Source of the DNA: Halapricum desulfuricans
GTDB taxonomy: Archaea; Halobacteriota; Halobacteria; Halobacteriales; Haloarculaceae
Reading direction: 5' to 3'
NCBI RefSeq assembly: GCF_017094505.1
Contig: NZ_CP064787.1
Coordinates: 1,178,001-1,242,000 of the forward strand
Length of the DNA stretch: 64,000 nucleotides
The translations under genes were made by a program, and so were the position numbers. Numbering within the stretch: position 1 is the first letter of the stretch; each line of letters begins with the position of its first letter. This document shows, piece after piece, positions 57,412-59,041 of the stretch. Below the pieces are notes generated by a model. It was given only the letters and a program-made list of their open reading frames with translations, searched no databases and was not told where the DNA came from.

Positions 57412-58449
57412 TCAGAACAGCTGATAGATGTGGCGTTCGTACACCTCGCGGACGCGTGACCCCCAGTCGTGAGTGTACGTGTCGATGATGTCCTGGGCGA
57501 CGTCACCACGGAGGTACTTGACGATCCCTCGATCGCCGGTCCGATCACGCAGGTGCGTTGTGAAGAAATGCCGGAAATAGTGGGGCGTCACGTTGTCGGC
57601 CGCGCCAGCGCCGTCGTGATACCAGCCGACATCGCGGGCGTGAGCTTCGACAGTGTGATGGACCATGTCGGTAGTGACCCGCCGGCCCCAGTTGTCGCTC
57701 GTGCCGGTAAAGAGCGGCTTCGCGTCGGAGACCGGATCCGGGCGAACGGCGAGCCACCGAATCAGGACCTCGCGCAGTTCGGGATCGACCGGAACGACGG
57801 TGTCGCGCTGGCGCTTGTTCGAGGCACGACGGTGCTCGCCGTTGGTCTGTGAGCCACGTGACGGCGTTGCAGACACGTACAGTGAGTTGGGCCGCCCGTC
57901 TAACTGCGGACGGACAGTCACACCGTCCCGGGGATCGTCGACGAGATTGAGATCGCGCTGATCCAGATTACAGAGCTCGCCGGCCCGGATCCCGGTCTTC
58001 AGTAGCGTGACGACGATCGCTCGATCGAGCGGGTGGGTGAGGCGATCGACGAACGAGCGCATCTCCGGGACCGAGATCTCGCGTCGCTGTGGGTCCGTGT
58101 CGATCGACTCGTCGATCTCTTCGACGACGAGTGCCATCGGGTTCGATTCGAAGGCGCCGACCTGAGTCATATACCCGTAGAACCGATGGAGATACGAGGC
58201 GTAGGTCGCGACGGTGCTCTCGGCGACAGTCCCACGGAGCCCGTGAATGTACGCCATACAGTCCCGATGTGATGCCTCTCCGAGTGTCTGTCCCGTCGTC
58301 GAGCGGCCCGAGTCGTCTGTCAGGAACGCCTCGAAATCCCGGAGTACGCGCTCGTAGGCGGCCTGTGTCCGCTCGCTTTTGCCCTGATAGGCGATGTCTT
58401 GCAGGAAGTACGCGATCGGGTCTTCCTGCGGATCGTCAGTTCGGCTCAT
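57412..58449 (-). CDS. Tyrosine recombinase/integrase (XerC/D-like)
   Basis: A 345-residue site-specific recombinase. The N-terminal SAM-like core-binding domain (10-115) is followed by the catalytic domain with R155 ('TGIRAGELCNL'), H290 and R293 ('TPHYFRHFFTTHL'), H/W position H299-H300 region, and nucleophile Y325 ('DTYTHDW'). All active-site residues appear intact, so the enzyme could be active. It overlaps its DUF5805 partner by 4 bases (ATGA). An att-like inverted repeat lies beyond its stop. Confidence 0.9.
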   Translation of the reverse strand: MSRTDDPQEDPIAYFLQDIAYQGKSERTQAAYERVLRDFEAFLTDDSGRSTTGQTLGEASHRDCMAYIHGLRGTVAESTVATYASYLHRFYGYMTQVGAFESNPMALVVEEIDESIDTDPQRREISVPEMRSFVDRLTHPLDRAIVVTLLKTGIRAGELCNLDQRDLNLVDDPRDGVTVRPQLDGRPNSLYVSATPSRGSQTNGEHRRASNKRQRDTVVPVDPELREVLIRWLAVRPDPVSDAKPLFTGTSDNWGRRVTTDMVHHTVEAHARDVGWYHDGAGAADNVTPHYFRHFFTTHLRDRTGDRGIVKYLRGDVAQDIIDTYTHDWGSRVREVYERHIYQLF

Positions 58450-58844
58450 GAGTCGACGAGCGTGTATCCACCGTTGCGACCGCTGTAGCGGACGACGTTT
58501 CGGTCCTGGAGGTCGGCCAGCGTCTCCTCGAGCCGGTCCTCGATATTGTCGGTGATCTCCGCCAGCAGTTCGTCCCAACTGTGGTACTCGCCTGCTGTCA
58601 GCACGGATTCGACGCGCTCTTCTAGCTCGCTGTCGGTCGTCTCTGTCGTCGGGGGGGTGTCTGAGGACTGTTCGTCGTCTGTCTCACCTTCGAGAAACCC
58701 ACGACGACCGGCCTGGACCATCGTCCGAACGAACTCGCTTTGGCTCATACCGAGTTCGTCAGCGTCGTCTTGCCACTCGTCTTTCTGGTACGCTGGAATG
58801 TAGGTCTTGACTGTCACACGCGACTCGTCTCTCTGTTCCGGCAT
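58446..58844 (-). CDS. DUF5805 family protein, partner of the recombinase
   Basis: A 132-residue haloarchaeal protein. The N-terminal half ('VTVKTYIPAYQKDEWQDDADELGMSQSEFVRTMVQAGRR', as VTVKTYIPAYQKDEW and SQSEFVRTMVQAGRR) looks like a ribbon-helix-helix DNA-binding module, and the C-terminal half ('LEETLADLQDRNVVRYSGRNGGYTLV', as DLQDRNVVRYSGRNGG) a winged helix. It is translated with the integrase. DUF5805 genes often sit with integrases in this group. It may regulate or assist recombination; phased repeats lie upstream. Confidence 0.85.
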   Translation of the reverse strand: MPEQRDESRVTVKTYIPAYQKDEWQDDADELGMSQSEFVRTMVQAGRRGFLEGETDDEQSSDTPPTTETTDSELEERVESVLTAGEYHSWDELLAEITDNIEDRLEETLADLQDRNVVRYSGRNGGYTLVDS

Positions 58845-58881
58845 ACGCGTGCCGTGAATCCCCTGCTACATCAGTGTATCC

Positions 58882-58993
58882 CTATATCTGAGGATAAGGC
58901 CAGTTATTTGTGTCTCTCGTCCCCTATTTGCCGGCCATCGACGGGCTATTTCTCCGTCTCGACTCGGACGGGGCCGATATAGTCCCATATTTG
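58882..58993. repeat. Phased CTATTTG-like repeats upstream of DUF5805 gene
   Basis: CTATATCTG, TTATTTG, CTATTTG, CTATTTC and CATATTTG end at 58890, 58910, 58930, 58952 and 58993, i.e. spacings of 20, 20, 22 and 41 (about two turns each, one missing). The first may also be the TATA box. Confidence 0.5.
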
Positions 58994-59041
58994 AGCCTAA
59001 ACAAATTCTTCTTCTCAGAGGAGCGCTGCTCGCCATCTATC

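Follow-up and report, generated by a model that had tools for sequence, protein, structure and literature searches.

In bacteria and archaea, the dif site has been described as two 11-nt inverted repeats that are separated by a 6-nt spacer and present in single copy (Badel 2021, PMC8371274), and archaeal dif sites have been reported in Thermococcales, Methanosphaera and Sulfolobales (Cortez 2010, PMC2958812). Haloarchaea, searched for by word stem, are absent from the main text of Cortez 2010 (PMC2958812), and no haloarchaeal dif site was noticed in the available portions of that paper and of Badel 2021 (PMC8371274). In the relevant part of a 2020 Haloferax review, the existence of a haloarchaeal dif and an Xer-like role in termination are left open, and cells in which four XerC-like genes had been deleted are given as viable. 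A 2021 review, in the part available, describes archaea as having no FtsK, so that control must work otherwise, and the corresponding part of a pleolipovirus survey goes no further than to leave integrase-free integration as a possibility (PMC10599561). Our literature searches returned no paper on DUF5805 and, among the papers listed for haloarchaeal dif or Xer, no description in which we recognised a site such as the one reported here.

In this paper, we report the computational analysis of a conserved element upstream of a two-gene operon in the window, which is the whole stretch of 64,000 nucleotides that was analysed. The operon is encoded on the minus strand and comprises overlapping genes for a DUF5805 protein of 132 amino acids (58446-58844; PF19121, E 2.1e-25) and for an Xer-type tyrosine recombinase of 345 amino acids (57412-58449; PF00589 and PF02899). 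The element is probably the recombination site of this resident recombinase and dif-like in character. In haloarchaea, which have many replication origins, the resolution of chromosome dimers would be a plausible and slightly favoured task for such a site.

DUF5805 was matched in 54 of 59 relatives, with 40 out of 40 among the near-complete ones of low contamination, and in all 293 genomes sampled over the order (at least 90% complete), where the weakest match had an E-value of 6e-4. For the comparison of loci, the 53 best-scoring DUF5805 matches were combined with 40 that were hand-picked for spread. A recombinase followed DUF5805 on the same strand in all 93 loci, beginning 353-484 nt past the start of the DUF5805 match in 92 of them and 931 nt past it in the last (L065). 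With DUF5805 matched in every genome of the order sample and a recombinase after it in every locus compared, the two genes form a core chromosomal operon and not a mobile-element pair.

The closest solved structure to the recombinase is XerA of Thermoplasma (5hxy, E 1.4e-9). Residues R155, K212, H290, R293 and Y325 are kept in 92-93 of the 93 loci, and Asp316, at a position that is usually His or Trp in such recombinases, is Asp in all 92 readable haloarchaeal orthologues. The presence of DUF5805 in all 293 sampled genomes and the invariance of the recombinase residues point to a housekeeping task. They weigh against the explanation that a domesticated integrase has been kept together with its old att site, as a landing place or for genome shuffling and not for dimers. 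Such a fossil integrative element would share the recombination step with the dif-like reading, and it would account for an integrase beside its own site (the usual layout of an integrated element), for the viability of the Haloferax XerC-like deletions and for the displaced cores with foreign DNA in nine genomes that are described below. On balance, we consider this explanation rather unlikely.

In the predicted model of the DUF5805 protein (mean pLDDT 78), helices 18-31 and 35-51 are placed as in ribbon-helix-helix (RHH) proteins and are followed by a winged-helix-like domain; the N-terminal strand of an RHH was not called. An RHH N-terminus joined to a winged-helix C-terminus is the likely reading of this model. 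A Foldseek search with it returned nothing below an E-value of 0.1, and its weak matches included RHH antitoxins and NikA. In line with an earlier note on this DNA, the product resembles a DNA-binding protein; the best Foldseek E-value was 0.11.

Two DUF5805 genes were also seen on replicons labelled as plasmids. A 987-kb replicon of Natrinema thermotolerans (CP031304.1) has its own DUF5805-integrase pair (L176:2444), preceded by a full element (PWM score 45.3), and a Halobaculum halophilum plasmid (NZ_CP058532.1, L175) has a solitary DUF5805 gene with neither an annotated adjoining recombinase nor a clear core upstream.

The earlier note had described five heptads resembling CTATTTG at a spacing of about 20 bp upstream of DUF5805, and had read them as suited to cooperative binding by an RHH protein such as the DUF5805 product, with self-control of the gene pair. 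All five are present: CTATTTG itself ends at 58930; TTATTTG, CTATTTC and ATATTTG, each with one mismatch, end at 58910, 58952 and 58993, respectively; and ATATCTG, with two mismatches, ends at 58890. Successive heptads are 20, 20, 22 and 41 bp apart. The intergenic region upstream of the DUF5805 gene (351 bp) was compared with 2000 dinucleotide shuffles. Matches with at most one mismatch numbered 4 against 0.33 expected, a count reached in 0 of 2000 shuffles, and those with at most two mismatches numbered 8 against 3.6 expected (p 0.016). A 20.5-bp phase holds six of these eight (shuffle mean 1.74; 0 of 2000 reach it), although the six include an overlapping pair (58888 and 58890) and this test of phase was devised after the claim was known. 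Chance A/T-rich words would be a ready explanation in intergenic DNA that is A/T-richer than genes, all the more as one heptad matches only five of seven bases. In view of these shuffle tests, and of the conservation over 79 loci and the phase coherence given below, we regard this explanation as having next to no probability.

The centre of the element is a dif-like core of two 11-bp arms and a 6-bp spacer (58887-58914, minus strand; GACACAAATAA / CTGGCC / TTATCCTCAGA, spacer 58898-58903), recognised by the pattern TAA-N6-TTA and by covariation between the arms. The heptad ending at 58910 is the inner part of the left arm. In the window, the arms are symmetric at the four innermost base pairs only, and many other genomes are more symmetric. 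A strict test without any reward for symmetry asked for a single TAA-N6-TTA in the interval of 45-110 nt ahead of the DUF5805 match. This was found in 77 of the 93 loci, the core lying 55-103 nt from the protein match, while spacers of 2, 3, 4, 5, 7, 8, 9, 10 and 11 gave 8, 2, 0, 2, 1, 0, 0, 2 and 1 loci of 93. The outer arm pairs 5, 6, 7 and 8 are complementary in 62, 47, 51 and 43% of loci, compared to 48, 32, 27 and 27% when arms were re-paired between genomes (0, 0, 0 and 1 of 1000 re-pairings reach the observed value). Pair 4 had no covariation excess (836 of 1000 re-pairings reach the observed value) and pairs 9-11 had little (87, 80 and 242 of 1000).

Eight of the 16 loci that failed the strict test have a core further up or with other bases within 260 nt, and the other eight have no such core within that distance; in one locus (L023), no good core was found in the 17 kb examined. 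Compensating variants of the core, TTA-N6-TAA and TCA-N6-TGA, were observed, and L062, L080 and L088 have a core-like site some 170-350 nt above the DUF5805 match. A rule combining the dyad with TTGA was satisfied by 66 of 93 loci, compared to no more than 7 in any of 50 mononucleotide shuffles; when applied 400 nt further upstream, it was satisfied by one locus in 93. Spacer 6 had been only weakly preferred in an initial palindrome scan that allowed several spacer lengths. In alignment A1, which holds 47 of 77 listed loci chosen by eye, 71.3% of arm cells pair, compared to 29-36% when the arms are slid; this figure and covariance model R1 lean towards a dyad because the loci were hand-picked and the anchoring rewards symmetric arms. 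An inverted repeat between the right arm and the R motif described below (TATCC...GGATA) was considered as the main dyad and set aside in view of the strong conservation of the fixed N6 dyad; this repeat may matter for the promoter.

The core is flanked by two further motifs. The X1 motif (CAAATAGGGGACGAG, 58916-58930, minus strand) was obtained from the anchored profile and alignment A1, has the order consensus AAATAkGGtgCYAca at -26 to -12 from the spacer, and contains the heptad ending at 58930. The R motif (TATAGGGATACACTGATG, 58869-58886, minus strand), with the order consensus TATGGGAcaAnTTGAAGT at +17 to +34, was recovered by the profile, the alignment and the covariance model, and the heptad ending at 58890 overlaps the edge of R and the right arm of the core. 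The core lies midway between X1 and R, which repeat each other in direct orientation at a distance of about 40 bp, and the heptads at 58930 and 58890 touch these flanking motifs of GGG type. The transcription start probably falls within R, and the right arm and R would occupy the positions of the TATA box and the start site. Aligned upstream regions form a nearly gapless element, with 1-2 bases of play before R. The anchored profile, for which the anchoring was done on the conserved block, includes 79 of the 93 loci. Those dropped were L023, L024, L025, L032, L058, L062, L069, L072, L073, L079, L080, L081, L088 and L093, and among them the profile rule missed gene-near cores in L032, L069, L079, L081 and, with other bases, L093.

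Beyond X1 lies a phased accessory region (58931-59008, minus strand; -28 to -105) in which A+T peaks follow one another at intervals of 10.6 bp and keep register with the core. The heptads ending at 58952 and 58993 fall here, the latter within TTTAGGCTCAAATATGGGACTATA, which resembles the right arm plus R. Over the 79 loci, A+T peaks were located near -2, -12, -24, -35, -45, -55, -66, -77, -88 and -99. Phase coherence for -105 to -28 peaks at 10.6-10.7 bp (coherence R 0.82-0.88) and is 0.36-0.44 at 20.5 bp. At 10.6 bp, the coherence is 0.84 over 78 loci (L002 was dropped besides the 14 left out of the profile) and 0.82 over 62 non-redundant ones (Rayleigh ~1e-18), whereas two control stretches further upstream gave 0.28-0.31 over the 78 loci, which is some background coherence or relatedness. 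The signal per sequence is modest (23 of 62 below p 0.05); the phase of the window is -16 degrees from the consensus (shuffle p 0.015). A periodicity of one helical turn is as expected for bent or wrapped DNA.

These results redraw the heptad pattern. The repeats are helically phased, and their spacing is conserved in relatives, as borne out by the alignments and by the A/T phase across genomes. A period of 20 bp was rejected because coherence peaks at 10.6 bp, so that the two-turn spacing of the heptads is a sample of a one-turn periodicity. Five equal operator heptads for an RHH protein were likewise rejected, each heptad being a distinct part of one conserved element in the profile and the alignment. 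Binding of DUF5805 at the flanking motifs may nevertheless hold.

In 10 of 93 loci, a palindrome, CCCC(A/T)GGGG, precedes the DUF5805 match by about 240-310 nt; the window has it once (59091). As 19 of the 93 loci also contain this word in the 900 nt downstream, only the fixed upstream distance is notable. The palindrome is present in Halosimplex inserts too.

A covariance model of X1, core and R had its sole match in the genome of the window (G000) at 58869-58927 (E 3.4e-8; this locus was in the model). At an E-value of at most 0.1, it matched 33 of 59 genomes, at one place each. Of these places 32 adjoin DUF5805, the sole match away from it being in G051 (E 0.08); as many matched loci were part of the model, the informative point is that nothing else was matched. 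At E 0.1, under strict filters, 26 genomes gave no match, among them incomplete genomes and ones with divergent or displaced sites. When up to three mismatches are allowed, the core pattern likewise occurs at one place in G000. A core scan of viral contigs gave 16 matches, which were judged to be chance; their G+C was 34-52%, and neither DUF5805 nor the recombinase was matched alongside any of them. A search for an attP-like copy in three pleolipovirus records (HHPV-1, Humcor2 and HRPV-1) yielded no convincing site. In Humcor2, where an own integrase is present, a core-like word lies inside the Rep gene.

Foreign DNA was found at the core in several genomes. In the nearest relative (G001), the full element is split by an insert of about 2 kb, its halves being 2.04 kb apart. 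Where the intact element of G000 reads GACACAAATAA-CTGGCC-TTATCCTC, the left junction of G001 retains AATAA-CT and the right junction TGGCC-TTATCCTC, with flank identities between the two genomes of 126/152 and 100/120 columns. Judged by these junction sequences against G000, the switch lies inside the spacer. The insert encodes an integrase, a PIN-domain protein and a VapB-like antitoxin, and the insertion could have been made by its own integrase.

Eight genomes of Halosimplex (genus g13) were searched, of which seven have DUF5805 and the eighth is 71% complete. In all seven, the core lies 994-14,689 nt above the DUF5805 match, and in G030 it lies 3033 nt above. Each of the eight 20-kb stretches concerned (seven Halosimplex and G030) contains exactly one TAA-N6-TTATC, which is the distant core, and TAA-N6-TTA was found in 0 of 8 stretches directly before the DUF5805 gene, where a degenerate right arm and R are retained. 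At the distant Halosimplex cores, positions -10 to +12 are kept in at least six of seven genomes and a second left-arm-like copy occurs near -54 to -45; X1 and R are not clearly kept there. The A/T phase of the displaced flank is within 60 degrees of the consensus in 7/7, with a significant amplitude in four. As the seven genomes represent one genus, the displacement may be one event plus turnover.

This arrangement bears on a rival reading akin to that of the earlier note, in which the whole element is an operator and promoter where a DUF5805 oligomer represses its own operon and no recombination takes place. Such an operator would suit the distance from core to protein match (55-103 nt in 77 of 93 loci), the probable position of the right arm and R at the TATA box and start site, the phased repeats and the modelled likeness of DUF5805 to an RHH protein with a winged helix. 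An operator, however, would be expected to stay with its promoter. Core and phased flank lie 1.0-14.7 kb from the DUF5805 gene in 7/7 Halosimplex genomes, with no TAA-N6-TTA before the gene, and this counts against self-control; a core and phased flank that are together away from the operon, and a promoter without the dyad, are what is expected of a recombination site. The insertion junctions in the spacer, the tyrosine recombinase that is the next gene at all 93 loci and the higher core-like sites of L062, L080 and L088 also speak against an operator, which we hold to be improbable.

The inserts themselves differ between genomes. A 320-nt piece adjoining the core is common to five of seven Halosimplex inserts (G017, G272, G315, G316 and G317) and may represent a short reading frame whose end lies close to the core; the rest of these inserts differs. 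G314 has a related 320-nt piece at the other end of its insert and G318 has none. In G314 (Halosimplex aquaticum; L148:656-15189), a pleolipovirus-like provirus of 14.5 kb lies between the core and the DUF5805 operon. It encodes a pleolipovirus-type replication protein (phrog_10542, E 2.8e-236), a spike-like protein with 39% identity to HHPV-3 VP3 over 76% of its length, an IS66 transposase and further proteins of function-unknown PHROG families. A search of inserts for PF00589 (E 0.001), which covered ten genomes, found no match in eight of nine inserts, G314 included, the exception being the G001 insert; among the inserts without PF00589, mobility is shown by virus genes for G314 alone. Inserts without an integrase beside the core suggest that the host enzyme was used, as at bacterial dif. 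In G318 and G314, a second, inverted core-like site is found nearer to the operon (L146, L148), some 650-660 nt before the stretch ends on the operon side, and could permit inversion of the intervening DNA. The natural junctions in the G001 spacer and at the Halosimplex core may reflect strand exchange at the spacer.

We therefore return to the dif-like site and to how it might work. Each 11-bp arm would be a binding site for the recombinase, and strand exchange would take place over the 6-bp spacer (58898-58903). An accessory protein, for which DUF5805 is the likeliest candidate, would bend or wrap X1, R and the phased A/T region and would thereby build the synapse and set its topology, a role played by FtsK or ArgR/PepA in bacteria. 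In most genomes, the site overlaps the promoter region of the operon, so that filling it would also damp expression. Mobile elements without an integrase of their own would enter the chromosome through it. The most complete version of this mechanism, in which DUF5805 bound to the phased array of about 80 bp replaces control of the FtsK type, shuts the operon down and leaves the site open to integrase-less viruses, is put forward as a tentative proposal only.

The kind of site is an ordinary one (Xer/dif) and, as far as our searches show, undescribed for a whole archaeal order; its unusual traits are the phased flank, the constant partner gene and the overlap with a promoter. For the order as a whole, it singles out a precise site together with one recombinase and one partner protein, which can be tested in tractable haloarchaea, and it may be a candidate route by which integrase-less pleolipoviruses lodge in chromosomes. 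IMEX such as the CTX phage use the host Xer at dif and regenerate a working site on one side; the integrase-less elements beside the dif-like core are alike in their position and would likewise have a working site regenerated on one side, with a cargo that is haloarchaeal and includes a pleolipovirus-like provirus. The plasmid Xer sites cer and psi likewise combine a core with accessory DNA that is wrapped by topology-setting proteins, which on plasmids are ArgR, PepA or ArcA, whereas the site described here is chromosomal and its candidate partner is DUF5805. For XerS/difSL, we know of no phased flank or RHH partner. This system of streptococci and lactococci is similar in that a single recombinase is linked to a dif-like site, according to the available part of its description (PMC2731167). 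The archaeal XerA/dif of Thermococcales and Sulfolobales, as presented in the portions of the literature at hand, has the same 11-6-11 dyad, a single site and one Xer-type recombinase, and in Sulfolobales dif is also close to xerA, just as the present site adjoins the recombinase operon. In contrast to archaeal XerA/dif, the haloarchaeal site lies upstream of the recombinase operon and overlaps its promoter region, and it is accompanied by a helically phased flank, a constant DUF5805 partner and a recombinase with Asp at the His/Trp position.
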